Origin: Secundilactobacillus angelensis
GTDB lineage: Bacteria; Bacillota; Bacilli; Lactobacillales; Lactobacillaceae
NCBI RefSeq assembly: GCF_012641075.1
Contig: NZ_JAAXLJ010000005.1
Location: 1 to 64,000, forward strand
Length of the DNA stretch: 64,000 nucleotides
Direction: 5' to 3'
The notes below the pieces were generated by a model. It worked only from the letters and a program-made list of their open reading frames with translations. It was not told the DNA's origin and made no database searches. The position numbers were made by a program, and so were the translations under genes. Below, piece by piece: positions 4,895 through 61,171 of this stretch. Positions within the stretch are counted from its first letter, which is position 1. Each line of letters starts with the position of its first letter.

Positions 4895-4929
4895 CAAAAA
4901 AAGAGTTCATCGACTAAATCGATGAACCC
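4895..4929 (-). terminator. intrinsic terminator of the cold-shock gene
   Basis: GTTCATCGA and TCGATGAAC pair across TTTAG, followed on the minus strand by TCTTTTTTT. Confidence 0.9.
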
Positions 4930-4948
4930 TTCTTATGGTTTAAACGAA

Positions 4949-5149
4949 TTAAGCAACAGTAACGTTGGCTGCTTGTGGGCCGCGGTCGCCTTGTTCTACG
5001 TCTAAGGTTACATGTTGACCTTCTTCAAGAGTCTTGTAACCATCAGCATTGATAGCTGAGAAGTGAACGAAAACGTCTGAGCCGTTTTCCAAAGTGATGA
5101 AGCCGTAACCTTTGTCGCCGTTAAACCATTTTACAGTACCTTGTTCCAT
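4949..5149 (-). CDS. cold-shock protein (CspA family)
   Basis: This is a 66-residue single cold-shock domain, the standard length. The RNA-binding motifs KGYGFI (RNP1) and VFVHF (RNP2) are intact. Such proteins bind single-stranded RNA and DNA and act as RNA chaperones. The ATG at 5149 follows GGAGG; a longer frame adds ten unlikely residues. About 300 bp separate it from phoU, room for the long structured leader usual in csp mRNAs, although I cannot delimit one. Confidence 0.95.
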
Positions 5150-5446
5150 AAGAGTGAAACCTCCGAGCGCATAGCGCAATATATTTGTGTATCTGAAACT
5201 TTAGAAATCGGGGAAGTCATTCTTGCGAACGTCGTACCAAAATTCCGAAGCATTAAATACATTAGTTATAAGATTAACAGCTATTGGCGTGAAAAGCAAG
5301 GGTAGTAACTTAATTATTTGAAAATATCTAGTATTTTTGGAGATTCAACGGGCTCTTTATCACCGCTGTTACGGGATTCATATCGTTAAGTGGAATATAA
5401 AAATTTAATTGAACCTATTTTTTGTGGAAATGATGATCTGCAATTC
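5150..5446. other. gene-free stretch: csp leader and promoter, phoU 3' end
   Basis: No coding frame is convincing. AT-rich sequence fits a csp promoter and 5' leader on the minus strand. I see no clear hairpin terminator for phoU here. Confidence 0.4.
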
Positions 5447-15015: not shown

Positions 15016-15049
15016 ATACAACAATTAAAATTGAATGACAAAATAAGTT

Positions 15050-15333
15050 GTGATTAGAACAAGTAGTTGATCCCCAATGTGCAGAGAACTTGGAATGCTG
15101 GAAGCCAAGTGATTGGGACAACGAAACACCTCTATGAACTGATCAGCCGAATGAAGTAAGCTGCTCCGCATGTTTAGCGTTATCAGGGTTACCTTAACTG
15201 TTCTTGAAGTGTCTTCAATGACTAGTTATTGGCAACGTAAGGTCGTCATCGTGAGGTGACGACAAATTGAGGTGGAACCGCGATGATATCGTCCTCGCAA
15301 ACTAATTTATTTAGTTTGCGAGGATTTTTTGTT
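15050..15333 (+). promoter_or_regulatory. T-box leader, histidine-specific
   Basis: Stem I shows the CAGAGA motif and a GAA-A-CAC specifier at 15123-15129; CAC is a His codon. The T-box GGTGGAACCGCG lies at 15271-15282. It is followed by an intrinsic terminator with CCTCGCAAACTAA pairing TTTAGTTTGCGAGG and a T-run ending near 15331. Uncharged tRNA-His would stabilise the antiterminator and allow hisZ-hisC transcription. Confidence 0.93.
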
Positions 15334-35871: not shown

Positions 35872-35900
35872 ATTATGACAGATTATTGGGTTTTGGACAA
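35872..35900 (-). promoter_or_regulatory. promoter of the mhqO-like/esterase operon
   Basis: On the minus strand TTGTCC, a 17-nt spacer and CATAAT. I see no MhqR-type palindrome. Confidence 0.55.
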
Positions 35901-35950
35901 TTATATTGCCTTATGGTTGTGGGGTGGAAGCGGCCTACAACATGACTTAA

Positions 35951-36229
35951 TTCTCTGAACGCCTGTTTTCACACCTTGGCTTAATCGGGCTACAACAGGC
36001 AGAGAGCTGCATGGAAGGCACAACGAACATAAATCCAAACCCGGGATTTTTGTCCGTATCACCTTCCACTCCGCTCTCTGAACGCCTGTTTTCACACCTT
36101 GGTATAATCGGGCTGCAACAGGCAGAGAGCTGCATGGAAGGCACAACGAACATAAATCCAAACCCGGGATTTTTGTCCGTTTCACCTTCCACTCCGCTCT
36201 CTGAACGCCTGTTTTCACACCTTGGTTTC
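35951..36229. repeat. tandem array 1 of the 97-nt palindromic element (period 123 bp)
   Basis: A partial 3' arm at 35951-35979 and two full units at 35994-36090 and 36117-36213. Each unit folds end to end: AACAGGC/GCCTGTT, AGAGAG/CTCTCT, TGGAAGG/CCTTCCA and a central ATAAATCC/GGGATTTTT hairpin. Internal loop CTGCA faces CTCCG, and a GAAC bulge sits on the 3' side. Confidence 0.9.
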
Positions 36230-36334
36230 ACCTTGTCACACAAGCGTAAATGAACTGTAATTCCCATGTTTTCACTCTGTTTCATTCATGCGTTACACTA
36301 GACACAATTAATAATTTAGAACAAGGGGAATTAC

Positions 36335-37237
36335 ATGAAAACTAATCATTTACTCAAAAGCATTTTTACTGGCTCATTAGCACTCGTTAGTGTATTGACA
36401 CTCAGCACGACGGCGTTCGCAGCTAAGACTAAAATTGCCGACGTTTCACAGTATCAGGGGAATATCAACTGGTCTAAGGCCTCCAAGGATTTACGGATGA
36501 CCATTATTCGGGTTAAACACGGTAATCCTGGCGACAGTGACTATCGAGTTGATACGAAGCGTGACGTCAATGCTAACGGTGCCTACAAATATGGAACACC
36601 ATTTGGTCAATATGACTATGCTGAATTCAATAGTACTTCAGATGCAGTGAGCGATGCTCGTCAATTCTATGCGCTATCCAATAAGCATGCAAAATTTTAT
36701 GCGCTGGATAACGAAAAGCGAGTTGGAAAAGGTAGTGAACAGTCATACGTTAACGCTTGGTACAACACCATGCGGACACTGACTAAGAAGCCATTAGTTT
36801 ACTATTCATACCAAAATTACGTCAACGTCCACAAAATTAGCTATTCTAAGTTTAACGGTTCATGGATCGCTAATTATTCCGCTAAACCGAATGTTTCGAC
36901 TGATTTATGGCAGTATACCAGTTCCGGCTCACTTTCAGGCGTCAGTGGTCGGGTTGATTTAAGCCGGACCGTCGATAATTCAACCGTTACAAAATGGTAC
37001 ACGAATACACCAAAGGACACGTATTTCACCAGTGTTTCTAATGGTCAACAATTACGTGTAACCCGGAACATCAATCGTTATCAGACAGCTAATCTCACTG
37101 GTAAAAAGGGCAGTGTGAAGTACAATTCAACTGTTACAGCAAAATCCATTGCACGGTCAACCAGTGGCACTTACCGAATTCAGCTGACTGATGGTAGTTA
37201 TATCACTGCTAACAAGAGTTATATCCAAGCAAAATAA
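36335..37237 (+). CDS. secreted GH25 lysozyme
   Basis: The 300-residue protein has a signal peptide ending near residue 30 (STTAFAAKT). The GH25 domain (about 34-215) starts with IADVSQYQGNINW, and the catalytic pair is Asp125-x-Glu127 in FYALDNEKR. It would cleave the beta-1,4 bond between MurNAc and GlcNAc. The last 75 residues form an SH3-like wall-binding tail (YFTSVSNGQQLRVTRNINRY). It sits alone between two tandem arrays of a structured repeat. Likely an autolysin rather than phage lysin, since no phage genes are near. Confidence 0.92.
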   Translation: MKTNHLLKSIFTGSLALVSVLTLSTTAFAAKTKIADVSQYQGNINWSKASKDLRMTIIRVKHGNPGDSDYRVDTKRDVNANGAYKYGTPFGQYDYAEFNSTSDAVSDARQFYALSNKHAKFYALDNEKRVGKGSEQSYVNAWYNTMRTLTKKPLVYYSYQNYVNVHKISYSKFNGSWIANYSAKPNVSTDLWQYTSSGSLSGVSGRVDLSRTVDNSTVTKWYTNTPKDTYFTSVSNGQQLRVTRNINRYQTANLTGKKGSVKYNSTVTAKSIARSTSGTYRIQLTDGSYITANKSYIQAK

Positions 37238-37300
37238 GTTTGAAGTAGAAGTCATCGTCCCTTGGGATGGTGGCTTTTTTGTGCTTAACTGGGCTACAGC

Positions 37301-37576
37301 TCTCTAAACGCTTGCTGTCGCACCCTGGGTTTAACTGGGCTGCAGCAGGCAGAGAGCTGCATGGAAGTAAACAATGCCATAAATCCAAACCCAGGATTTT
37401 TGTCATTATTCACTTCCACTTCGCTCTCTAAACGCCTGCTTTCGCACCTTGGGTTTAATTGGGCTACAGCAGGCAGAGAGCTGCATGTAGGTGGTTTCCG
37501 ACATAAATCCAAGCCCGGGATTTCTGTCAAAAGCCCCCTACACTCCGCTCTCTAGACGCCTGCTTTCGCACCTTGG
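37301..37576. repeat. tandem array 2 of the 97-nt palindromic element (period 124 bp)
   Basis: A partial 3' arm at 37301-37330 and full units at 37344-37440 and 37468-37564. Compared with array 1 the stems change in step: AGCAGGC/GCCTGCT, TGGAAGT/ACTTCCA, and TGTAGG/CCTACA. Internal loop CTGCA faces CTTCG or CTCCG; the bulge reads AAAC or AGAC. Confidence 0.9.
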
Positions 37577-37637
37577 GTTGATTTCTTTCATTAAAATGCT
37601 ATGATAAAACTAACATCTATTCTGAGAGGTCGCCATT

Positions 37638-37700
37638 ATGCATAAAATTAAGCCAACTCAATTGAATAGTCGATTTTACTTTTGGTTTTTCCAGTACTGA
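37638..37700 (+). CDS. aromatic amino-acid leader peptide
   Basis: A 20-residue frame starts at ATG 37638 after GAGAGGTC. It ends in FYFWFFQY and a TGA stop, so seven of its last eight codons are for Phe, Tyr or Trp. The stop codon lies at the start of a hairpin series ending in a terminator before an aminotransferase gene. This is the form of a ribosome-stalling leader peptide. Too short for ordinary gene finding; no function as a protein is implied. Confidence 0.8.
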   Translation: MHKIKPTQLNSRFYFWFFQY

Positions 37701-37819
37701 TCTGTGAAGAGCCAGAAGCATTTTGTGATTAAATGCTAAATGACCACACAGATCAGGTTCTGACTGTGTGGGAGAGGCTTCAAGACCCGTGCAGTTACTG
37801 GCTGTACGGGTCTTTTATA
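37697..37819 (+). promoter_or_regulatory. transcription attenuator behind the aromatic leader peptide
   Basis: Segments: 1 CTGATCTGTG (37697-37706), 2 CACACAGATCAG (37745-37756), 3 CTGTGTGGG (37764-37772), 4 CCCGTGCAG (37786-37794), 5 CTGTACGGG (37802-37810). 1:2, 2:3, 3:4 and 4:5 can all pair; 4:5 with AAGA/TCTT and TTTT is the terminator. Stalling early on the aromatic codons would leave 1:2 and 3:4 formed, giving read-through. Confidence 0.75.
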
Positions 37820-37838
37820 TTATAAGGAGTGTTTTGCT

Positions 37839-39008
37839 ATGAGTCGATTGTCGGAAAAAATGAAACATGAGTTAAAACAGATTCAGCCTTCATCTATATT
37901 GAAGTTTAATCAAGAAATTTCTAAGGTGCCTGATATGGTGAAGCTGACCATAGGCGAACCGGATTTTAATACCCCTGATCACGTTAAGCAGGCAGCTATC
38001 CGCAGTATCGAGAATAATGAAAGTCACTACACGAATTCTCGTGGGACTGAAGGCTTACGCCAGGCTGCTTCAAAATTTTTACACGATAAATATAACGTTA
38101 ACTACGATCCTGAATCTCAAATTTTAGTGACTACTGGTGCCACAGAAGGGATTTTCTCCTCACTGACAGCAATGTTAAATCCGGGTGACACTGTGATTAT
38201 TCCAACACCGATCTTCCCGCAGTACATTCCGGTTGCTATTTTGAATGGTGCCAAACCGATTTTCCTGGATACTTCTGATAACGGGTTCATTTTGTCGCCA
38301 GAAAAATTACAAGCTACCATTGAAGCCAATAAGGATACCGTCAAAGCGGTTGTCATGAACTTCCCGTCTAATCCAACCGGCGTTACTTACAATCGTCAAG
38401 AATTGCAGGCGCTCGCGGATGTTTTAAAGCAATACGACATTTTCGTTTTAAGTGATGAAATTTACTCGGAATTAACTTACGGCGAGCATCACGTGTCAAT
38501 GGGTGAACTATTGCCAGACCAAACCGTGCTCTTAAACGGGGTCTCTAAGTCCCATGCTATGACTGGTTGGCGGATTGGCCTAGTATGTGGGCCAGTAGAT
38601 GTGATTTCAGAAATTGGCAAAGTTCACCAGTTTGCCATTACTTCTGCGACTGCCAATGCGCAAGCGGCAGCTGAAGAAGCATTTAAAAATGGTCCGGACG
38701 ATGGGGTTGCAATGCGGAAAATTTACCAACAACGTCGAGATCTTTTGCTTGCCGGATTAAAGAAAGCCGGCTTCGAATGTGCTAATCCGAAAGGGGCATT
38801 CTACCTCTTTGCGAAGATACCAGCCAATCTGAACCAGGATAGCGTGGCATTTTGCTATGAGCTTGCCAAAGAGGCAAAAGTAGCTGTGATTCCAGGTGCT
38901 TCATTTGGTCCTGGTGGTGAAGGTTACGTTCGAATCAGTTACGCAGCCAGCACCGATGCATTGAAGAAAGCAGTTGAACGCATTCAAAAATTTGTTGATC
39001 AGCATTAA
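37839..39008 (+). CDS. class I/II PLP aminotransferase (aromatic or acetyl-DAP type)
   Basis: The 389-residue enzyme is fold-type I. The PLP Lys is in LNGVSKSHAMTGWRIG, with LTIGEPDFNTP, VTTGATEGIFS, NFPSNPTGVTY and VLSDEIYSEL. Sequence resembles both AraT-type aromatic aminotransferases and PatA (acetyl-diaminopimelate aminotransferase). The leader peptide rich in Phe, Tyr and Trp favours an aromatic role; this is inference. AAGGAG precedes the ATG. The dehydrogenase gene follows after 29 nt. Confidence 0.88.
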   Translation: MSRLSEKMKHELKQIQPSSILKFNQEISKVPDMVKLTIGEPDFNTPDHVKQAAIRSIENNESHYTNSRGTEGLRQAASKFLHDKYNVNYDPESQILVTTGATEGIFSSLTAMLNPGDTVIIPTPIFPQYIPVAILNGAKPIFLDTSDNGFILSPEKLQATIEANKDTVKAVVMNFPSNPTGVTYNRQELQALADVLKQYDIFVLSDEIYSELTYGEHHVSMGELLPDQTVLLNGVSKSHAMTGWRIGLVCGPVDVISEIGKVHQFAITSATANAQAAAEEAFKNGPDDGVAMRKIYQQRRDLLLAGLKKAGFECANPKGAFYLFAKIPANLNQDSVAFCYELAKEAKVAVIPGASFGPGGEGYVRISYAASTDALKKAVERIQKFVDQH

Positions 39009-39037
39009 TTGCATAAATGAGGAAGAGGGAAGACGCT

Positions 39038-40033
39038 TTGAAGTTTTTGTTATACCACGCACGTGAAGATGAATTAGTCGCCGTTAAGGAATGGATGAAG
39101 TTGCATCCTGATGTTCAAGTGGATACCAACGATGTCCCACTGACAGAAGAAACGGTTGAACTGGCTAAGGGTTACGATGGCATTGTGATTCAGCAACATA
39201 TTCCGGTGGATTCGCCGAAAATTTATCAACGCCTTCACGAATTAGGTATCAAACAGCTAACGTTGAGAATCACTGGTTATGAAATTGTTGATCTCAAGCA
39301 AGCTGCCGAAAATCACTTGGTGGTCACCAACGTGCCGGCATATTCGCCCCGATCCGTTAGTGAACTAGTTCTAGCACATGTGATGAAGTTGGTTCGTCAC
39401 TTAGGGATTGCGCAAGCCCGGGAAGCTCACCATGATTTTACTTGGGGTGGGTTGGAAGCAAACGAAATCCATAACCTGACCATCGGCATTATTGGTGCTG
39501 GAAAAATTGGTAGCGCGGTTGCTCGAATTTTTAAGGCCTTGGGTTCAACTGTAATTGCCGCTGACCCCATTCATCGGCCAGAGTTAGGGGATACACTGAC
39601 GTATACTGATCACGAAACTGTTTATAAAACAGCTGATATCGTGACGATGCACACGCCGTTAACGGCTGAAACACATCATATGATCGACAAACACGTTTTT
39701 CAAATGATGAAGCCGTCAGCTTTCTTCATCAACGCTTCACGTGGTCCGGTTGTTGTGGCGGATGATTTAGTGGCCGCGTTGGAGCAGGGTGAGATTGCAG
39801 GGGCTGGAATTGATACCATCGAAGGGGATAGCCAGATTTTTAGCCAGGATTGGTCGGATAAGAACCTAAATAATCCACCACTGGAAAAATTACTGACGAT
39901 GCCAAACGTTAGTGTCAGCCCGCACGTTGGCTTTTACACGGATGCTGCAGTAGCAAACATGGTGGAAATTGCTTTGGATGATGTGTTGACAATCGTTCAA
40001 GGTGGCAAGAGTCGCCATCAGGTTACCGAATAA
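39038..40033 (+). CDS. D-2-hydroxyacid dehydrogenase (D-LDH/HicD family)
   Basis: The 331-residue enzyme reduces 2-oxo acids to D-2-hydroxy acids with NADH. The Rossmann motif is GIIGAGKIGSAVARIF; catalytic residues are Arg in INASRGPVV, Glu in the TIEGD region and His in SPHVGFYTD. The start is TTG 39038 behind GAGGAAGAGGG; ATG 39017 lies before that site. As second gene after an aminotransferase it could turn phenylpyruvate or indolepyruvate into the D-hydroxy acid. Plain D-lactate formation is also possible. Confidence 0.88.
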   Translation: MKFLLYHAREDELVAVKEWMKLHPDVQVDTNDVPLTEETVELAKGYDGIVIQQHIPVDSPKIYQRLHELGIKQLTLRITGYEIVDLKQAAENHLVVTNVPAYSPRSVSELVLAHVMKLVRHLGIAQAREAHHDFTWGGLEANEIHNLTIGIIGAGKIGSAVARIFKALGSTVIAADPIHRPELGDTLTYTDHETVYKTADIVTMHTPLTAETHHMIDKHVFQMMKPSAFFINASRGPVVVADDLVAALEQGEIAGAGIDTIEGDSQIFSQDWSDKNLNNPPLEKLLTMPNVSVSPHVGFYTDAAVANMVEIALDDVLTIVQGGKSRHQVTE

Positions 40034-60864: not shown

Positions 60865-60929
60865 TTCACCCTTTATTTTCATTATTCCCTTGACTATCTT
60901 AGAAAACAATTATAGAATTTGATTAAATC

Positions 60930-61171
60930 GAAGAGGTTGCAACCGACATTAGTCAGTTCACTCAGTCACTGTTATGACTAAGAGGTGGACCAAAAGGGGA
61001 CGTTGCCGAAGCGCTGATTGTTACAGCAGTCAGTTTGCTGGGACGTGATTGAATAAATCACGGACTGTCGCAGATATAACGTCTGCGGAGCGCTATCGAA
61101 AATGAGTCCATAATGAATGAGTCATTAAACGTGGGGTCCTTTTGTTTAGCGCAAACAAAAGGATCCTTTTT
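60930..61171 (+). promoter_or_regulatory. lysine riboswitch (L-box) with terminator
   Basis: Conserved L-box parts occur in order: GAGGTTGCAACC, AAGAGGTGGACC, GGGGACGTTGCCGAAGCG, AGTTTGCTGGGACGTG, CACGGACTGTCGCAG and GCGGAGCGCTATCG. An intrinsic terminator follows, GGTCCTTTTGTTT with AAACAAAAGGATCC and TTTTT (61134-61171). Lysine binding should favour termination before lysA. Confidence 0.93.

Follow-up and report, generated by a model that had tools for sequence, protein, structure and literature searches.

A putative aromatic leader-peptide attenuator with a codon-sequestering helix in Secundilactobacillus angelensis, and its wider family in Lactobacillales

The attenuators of the enterobacterial trp and phe operons contain a short frame rich in the regulated amino acid, and their RNA terminates when it is left untranslated. 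Leaders regulated by TRAP carry repeated (G/U)AG triplets to which this protein binds. Panina and co-workers reportedly compared aromatic regulation among low-GC Gram-positive bacteria in 2003, and their study may describe part of the leader family considered here.

The published systems closest to the present locus are cited here and below by PMC number and from the accessible parts of each article. Leader peptides for histidine before hisZ and hisS copies in bacilli represent leader-peptide attenuation in Firmicutes (PMC2965389); as far as the accessible text of this 2010 survey goes, no leader-peptide system beyond Proteobacteria and Actinobacteria was known before its own his case, except the atypical ermC leader. 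The uORFC-13-1 motif of Acholeplasma aroF combines an upstream frame containing a Phe codon with a terminator and was read as attenuation (PMC8632094). According to the part seen of another study, no T-box was found in Streptococcus pyogenes (PMC9382623). In Streptococcus agalactiae, gbs1262 and gbs2033 were described as putative aromatic riboswitches conserved in Lactobacillales, with leaders of these types upstream of ABC transporters and, for gbs2033, of aroFBC-tyrA in Enterococcus faecium (PMC4448216). The term leader peptide is absent from the accessible main text of that paper, in which the elements are read as riboswitches. Finally, the Rfam family RF02863 (sRNA_2410) is an E. faecium small RNA detected as two transcripts on a Northern blot, for which the accessible text gives no function (PMC5593968). 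A literature search that left most subscription journals outside yielded, among the matches listed, no published aromatic leader peptide in Lactobacillales.

The leader, its RNA segments and the operon

The window analyzed is a stretch of 64,000 nucleotides from Secundilactobacillus angelensis (contig NZ_JAAXLJ010000005.1, positions 1 to 64,000, forward strand), to which all coordinates refer. It contains a leader frame of 20 codons that opens with ATG at 37638 and ends with TGA at 37698-37700. The peptide ends, over codons 13-20, in F Y F W F F Q Y, with seven aromatic residues among the eight. An earlier sequence-only reading had proposed this frame, its ribosome site and its aromatic end, and its coordinates proved correct when read from the window sequence. 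The features of the locus are as follows.

37578..37605, + strand: promoter-like site TTGATT-16 nt-TATGAT with TG before the -10 element (9 of 12 consensus positions; pattern match only)
37624..37629, + strand: Shine-Dalgarno sequence GAGAGG of the leader frame
37638..37700, + strand: leader peptide frame MHKIKPTQLNSRFYFWFFQY, stop codon included in the coordinates (sequence, conservation)
37679..37691, + strand: segment A, CUUUUGGUUUUUC, within the aromatic codons; pairs with B (minimum-energy fold)
37698..37706, + strand: segment 1, UGAUCUGUG, starting at the stop codon; pairs with segment 2
37706..37718, + strand: segment B, GAAGAGCCAGAAG, sequestering the aromatic codons (fold, genus alignment, codon/partner covariation)
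37744..37756, + strand: segment 2, CCACACAGAUCAG; pairs with 1 and with 3
37760..37772, + strand: segment 3, CUGACUGUGUGGG; pairs with 2, forms the antiterminator with 4
37784..37795, + strand: segment 4, GACCCGUGCAGU, 5' arm of the terminator (window pairing, folding)
37801..37812, + strand: segment 5, GCUGUACGGGUC, 3' arm of the terminator, followed by a U tract (hairpin pattern)
37839..39008, + strand: class I/II aminotransferase, 389 aa (PF00155, E 3e-74)
39017..40033, + strand: D-2-hydroxyacid dehydrogenase (PF02826, PF00389)

A stretch similar to the -10 element was seen by eye in relatives within the genus, and insertions within the leader frame in the Secundilactobacillus alignment measure 3 nt. 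A search of the same genome with one pattern, meant to reveal further copies of the leader, gave four matches, compared with two and four for the control pattern. One of the four is the leader itself; L108 overlaps a paralogous aminotransferase gene but is on the opposite strand, and L107 and L109 were rejected, as the stretch inspected contained no leader.

The aminotransferase gene starts 138 nt past the leader stop codon. Its best NCBIfam match is PRK07309.1 (568 bits, under the cut-off of 576). The dehydrogenase frame opens with ATG at 39017; judged by eye, TTG at 39038, which follows a purine-rich stretch, may be the true start. The Pfam assignments bear out the aminotransferase and hydroxyacid dehydrogenase that had been predicted downstream of the leader. 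Together the two enzymes could make phenyllactic acid, a compound of interest in food. In the region immediately before the promoter-like site, repeated stretches at 35900-36300 and 37300-37560, in which short frames overlap on both strands, flank a gene at 36335-37237, which we take to recall a lysozyme. Rfam matches within the window include a T-box (15041-15299), a lysine riboswitch (60924-61103) and a cspA thermoregulator (4900-5340).

The leader RNA folds with high stability, at -73.4 kcal/mol; 200 dinucleotide shuffles average -46.2 (sd 4.0; z = -6.8), and not one of them folds as low. The sequence-only reading had listed five segments with pairings 1:2, 2:3, 3:4 and 4:5, the last a terminator, and all four are present in the window sequence; the terminator-like hairpin spans 37782-37814 with 15 pairs (pattern match only). 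What that list had missed is a further helix with a segment just after the stop codon: in the minimum-energy fold the aromatic codons at 37679-37691 pair over 13 bp with 37706-37718 (A:B). Because the codons are sequestered in this way, untranslated RNA should terminate. Window pairings, the genus alignment and folding agree that the antiterminator 3:4 and the terminator are mutually exclusive.

Distribution and covariation of the leader

The leader frame lies directly upstream of the orthologous aminotransferase gene in 14 of 15 Secundilactobacillus genomes. S. silagei, the fifteenth, has an intact leader, which ends a contig, and the gene starts another. Of these two S. silagei contigs (L037, L144), that with the leader stops ~120 nt past the terminator and that with the aminotransferase carries unrelated upstream sequence, so that leader and gene look as if separated by an insertion. 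Searched with the aminotransferase at 1e-100, 101 of 121 genomes of the family Lactobacillaceae gave a match, and the best-match loci were read for 70 of the 101 (L246 was dropped). In 38 of these 70 genomes the best homologue follows an aromatic leader frame that has a ribosome site; by the same frame test no leader was recognisable upstream of the other 32. The same kind of frame was found before none of 35 paralogous aminotransferase genes and in none of 105 reverse-complement controls. Twenty of the 32 leader-less loci were run against Rfam and yielded one T-box, so that T-boxes leave most of these loci unexplained. Orthologues without the frame, or without aromatic codons in it, had been named as evidence that would speak against the reading; they amount to one genome at most within the genus and to 32 of 70 in the family. 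An alignment of orthologous leaders, also called for, revealed aromatic codons and pairing kept while bases change.

At E 0.01, a covariance model built from 13 leaders matched 113 of the 397 family genomes searched, the weakest of these matches possibly by chance; it recovered a held-out, divergent member of the genus at 4.9e-7. We read 70 model matches, 40 of which had been taken strongest first with some lower picks for spread. All except one (69/70) contain an aromatic frame, with six aromatic codons in the six-codon run in 51, five in 13, four in 3 and three in 2, related leaders not being independent. AAGGAGG is matched at 4 nt or more upstream of each of these 69 leaders. The remaining match, L103, was a false positive and was dropped, also from the multi-group scan, the shuffle comparison and the codon tally below.

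Other genes behind the same kind of leader encode a TrpX-like ABC binding protein (PF04392), a transketolase or the dehydrogenase alone. A transketolase behind an aromatic leader (L105 by Pfam, L135 and L329 by eye) would link the supply of erythrose 4-phosphate to aromatic need. Membrane proteins resembling PTS_EIIC_2 by similarity follow the aromatic leaders L078, L082, L083, L091, L096 and L098, PF13303 being confirmed for L078 and L098, the only members tested; at L081 such a protein comes after the hydroxyacid dehydrogenase. These proteins may transport an aromatic compound. One genome has a second leader (L085, G253:C1:942582) before a 191-aa protein that matches no Pfam family and, by eye, recalls prephenate dehydratase-like proteins.

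Pairing was assessed in the 13 genus leaders. Of all alignment cells, 99.1% are paired in 1:2 and 96.8% in 2:3; the latter includes nine two-sided cells, and none of 500 shuffles scored as high. In A:B 98.8% of cells are paired, with two unpaired. Variation in this helix is nearly all on the B side, as A to G opposite U; without two-sided change it has no covariation support of its own within the genus. Beyond the genus we give the codon/partner comparison, in which the best codon helix was sought within 112 nt downstream, identical frames were counted once and L097, lacking the motif, was left aside. In about nine loci the wrong codon was taken as anchor, and some of these pair by chance. When leaders from all groups are taken together, the fourth codon of the aromatic run is fully paired in the best helix of 135 of 146 unique leaders. 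A UGG codon faces CCA in 46 of 53 leaders, and where Ser replaces Trp, AGC faces GCU in 76 of 76. CGG faces CCG in two of three leaders (Paucilactobacillus), and the single GGC faces GCU. For 8 of the 76 AGC leaders the best helix is found farther downstream, 103-113 nt past the stop codon and not at 56-81. The codon/partner swaps seen in these sequences probably reflect few independent events, since codon states are common to related genomes. In a shuffle test with a slightly different anchor (144 leaders, identical frames counted once), each downstream region was shuffled 200 times; no more than 10 of the shuffles matched the codon helix in 114 leaders, and more than 10 did so in 30.

A peptide profile brought up leaders that end in YFSYFR or a similar sequence from other families of Lactobacillales (peptide matches L123, L124, L126 and L140 have no leader frame and were rejected). 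Four of six such loci match RF02863 over its cut-off. At E 0.001, RF02863 matches 157 of 295 genomes of the order, in 47 of 75 genera (71 over the cut-off), and none of 14 control genomes; many genomes have two or more matches. Among the matches listed we read 70 loci, 40 of them chosen for spread (L269, L270 and L275 are identical with L122, L120 and L130), and in all 70 there is an aromatic leader frame whose six-codon run has four or more aromatic codons. With the start chosen, the ribosome-site match is at least 4 nt in 59 of the 70, 3 nt in ten and absent in one. Read from sequence, the downstream genes mostly encode TrpX-like proteins and shikimate dehydrogenase (aroE), also prephenate dehydratase; Pfam confirmed one member each among the relatives for shikimate dehydrogenase, prephenate dehydratase, DAHP synthase, TrpX-like protein and transketolase. 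The genes behind the leaders fall within aromatic metabolism, with the aminotransferase here (its aromatic substrate being putative) and genes of aromatic pathways or transport in relatives. The final Arg codon of RF02863-type leaders is AGA in 73 and AGG in 3 of 76 (identical frames counted once; L100 lacks the core). Because the Arg and stop codons can pair downstream, as seen by eye, we do not claim the final Arg as a peptide signal.

At class level, 26 of 299 genomes gave a match, 21 of them within the order and 5 outside. Seven loci outside the order were read. Six are clear leaders preceding genes that read as DAHP synthase, prephenate dehydratase, transketolase or TrpX-like protein. The seventh (L330, G865:C36) is weaker and ends NIWYSYRR; by eye, the gene behind it resembles at its start what we take to be a sodium-coupled transporter. 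In Sporolactobacillus, placed in another order by NCBI taxonomy, the leader precedes an aminotransferase in three of three loci. The window element itself gave no RF02863 match at E ≤10 in 37500-37900, and its own genome none at E 0.001. On these sequence grounds, the orphan Enterococcus small RNA family RF02863 looks like the terminated transcript of aromatic leader-peptide attenuators (e.g. L118, L250-L319).

Ribosome position, switching and alternative readings

We consider it likely, with a probability of about 0.8, that the leader is a ribosome-mediated transcription attenuator sensing charged Phe-, Tyr- and Trp-tRNA. Without translation, A would pair with B, 2:3 and 4:5 would form and transcription would stop. 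A ribosome stalled on the aromatic codons by uncharged tRNA would cover A and leave segment 1 free. Segment 1 would then pair with 2 and segment 3 with 4, so that the terminator could not form and the aminotransferase/dehydrogenase operon would be transcribed. A ribosome that reached the stop codon would cover segment 1, allowing 2:3 to form and 4:5 to terminate. From sequence and folding we infer that the leader is transcribed and translated, that ribosomes actually stall, that amino acids elicit the response and in which direction control operates.

To follow switching, a ribosome was set at each codon, the RNA 3' of it was folded to the end of segment 4, and the expected 3:4 pairs were read; the calculation treats a truncated transcript at equilibrium and does not model kinetics. 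A ribosome with the Trp codon in its A-site left 3:4 ahead of 2:3 in 12 of 13 genus leaders. When it stood at the stop codon, 2:3 exceeded 3:4 in all 13 (nearly tied in L015), and with no ribosome A:B and 2:3 prevailed in 12 of 13 (narrowly in L016). The aromatic run occupies codons -8 to -3 from the stop. At a ribosome edge of 13 nt, the mean number of expected 3:4 pairs in the 13 leaders was 7.0-8.6 on codons -8 to -4 ([FY]-Y-F-W-F), compared with 0.6-0.8 on the last F, Q, the final codon and the stop, and 1.4-3.4 on the five codons before the run. Individual leaders deviate: L014 is weak everywhere, and L020 switches on at just two codons; L015 is already on before the run and stays half on at the stop; in L010, L011 and L018 the on state includes the Arg codon that precedes the run. 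The leader at 37638 itself gives an uneven profile, with 0.6 at the third and 1.2 at the fifth aromatic codon. Whatever the assumed edge, the stretch of switching codons spans about five codons; it shifts with the edge, from -7 to -3 at 9 nt, to -8 to -4 at 11 and 13 nt, -9 to -5 at 15 nt and -10 to -6 at 17 nt, the last including two non-aromatic codons.

In 85 diverse leaders, antitermination on the run minus that at the stop averaged 0.239, compared with 0.049 in 680 shuffles, and exceeded 0.2 in 46 of 85 versus 118 of 680. A peak over both sides was found in 25 of 85 leaders versus 23 of 680 shuffles, leaving 60 of 85 without a peak. Several leaders (L065, L066, L068 and more, also some of RF02863 type) look on almost throughout the frame. 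In other groups many leaders have no simple switch pattern, and several, by eye, have further segments that the measure ignores. The position of the ribosome on the regulatory codons selects the antiterminator in equilibrium folding only, and the exact window depends on the assumed edge and on the leader.

Attenuation by the ribosome, as the sequence-only reading had it, is supported by conservation, pairing and folding, and is amended by the A:B helix and by the wide leader family. The dehydrogenase is an odd gene to induce on starvation, which counts against this reading. A T-box was rejected at the leader, with no RF00230 match in the search at gathering, which did find the T-box at 15041, nor at E ≤10 in 37500-37900; the Rfam trpB motif RF04312 reached 23.7 bits compared with its cut-off of 59, and no Rfam family scored over its cut-off at the leader. 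A different use of the ribosome would be nascent-peptide arrest of the TnaC type, in which free aromatic amino acid stalls the ribosome at the stop codon by way of QLN and the aromatic end, turning the operon off. The motif [QKH][LMVI]N does occur in 107 of 145 unique leader frames (identical frames counted once), the first aromatic codon lying mostly two to four codons past its Asn, and it is also present in leaders with other RNA downstream. Synonymous codon differences amount to 78% at its middle and 35% at its first position, compared with 3-11% at the four positions before and 14% after, a comparison that is biased, and suggestive only, because the positions were picked by the motif. However, in the codon tally, with identical frames counted once, F and Y codons replace one another and W gives way to S, R, G, L, Y or A, a pattern that fits codon reading better than a fixed sensor; the end residues of the leader peptides differ, and in the folding scan the switch window falls, on average, on the aromatic codons themselves. 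We regard such arrest as unlikely, although the conserved QLN motif may give the nascent peptide a share in the control.

It is far less probable still that the element is a riboswitch binding an aromatic amino acid or precursor directly, as proposed in 2015 for the S. agalactiae elements, where structured leaders with terminators and short RNAs in RNA-seq were described (PMC4448216, accessible part). A riboswitch needs no reading frame, yet an aromatic frame is present in all 70 RF02863 loci read and in the window family. Hardly credible, in our estimate, is a constitutive terminator with a chance frame, or a small functional protein, without amino acid control. Some relatives do lack the leader, and a terminator-like hairpin lies downstream in all 86 loci examined, including the false positive L103, so that the hairpin alone is weak evidence and a poor discriminator; conservation, the paralogue control, covariation and codon-dependent folding speak against a chance frame. 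Alongside ribosome-mediated attenuation we put forward, as a tentative and rather doubtful extension, that one ancestral leader, combining a codon-locking helix with a conserved peptide (QLN, then YF-x-YF), is the common aromatic regulator of Lactobacillales, replacing T-boxes. Its peptide would aid pausing, so that codon starvation and nascent-chain sensing would be combined, and sRNA_2410 would be its terminated transcript.

Comparison with described attenuators and riboswitches

Uncoupling of transcription and translation has been reported for Bacillus subtilis. If the wide family holds, the ribosome in lactic acid bacteria would follow RNA polymerase closely enough to steer it, which would bear on transcription-translation coupling in the phylum. 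The family would also give an orphan Rfam RNA a function and set codon reading beside a proposed riboswitch class as an alternative; for uncharacterised genes, among them those of the PTS_EIIC_2 membrane proteins behind the leader, it would predict a role in aromatic metabolism or transport.

As in the enterobacterial trp and phe attenuators, the position of the ribosome would pick terminator or antiterminator. Unlike these, the window leader, from Lactobacillaceae, has three aromatic amino acids in one run, and five segments together with a helix made by the codons themselves. Firmicute systems of related kind differ in other respects. The his leaders concern histidine and other genes, an aminotransferase not being mentioned in the accessible text (PMC2965389). 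Ribosome-mediated transcriptional attenuation at bmrC/bmrD of Bacillus subtilis controls a drug transporter in response to antibiotics (PMC4191407, accessible part), and the T-box of trpXYZ in Streptococcus suis provides starvation antitermination of a TrpX transporter but binds tRNA directly (PMC9382623, accessible part). As far as described in its source, uORFC-13-1 is confined to Acholeplasma and unknown environmental organisms, and its gene and structure differ from those of the window leader (PMC8632094). The gbs1262 and gbs2033 elements share leaders and terminators with the present family, a likeness drawn from their description (PMC4448216, accessible part). The RF02863 loci share with the window element a terminator, a helix between codons and partner segment and an aromatic leader, which in these loci mostly reads QLN...YFSYFR; the window element differs in keeping Trp and in placing B about 20 nt after the stop codon, compared with mostly 56-81 nt. 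The window element is best read as leader-peptide attenuation with a codon-sequestering helix, and as part of a wide family of aromatic leaders.
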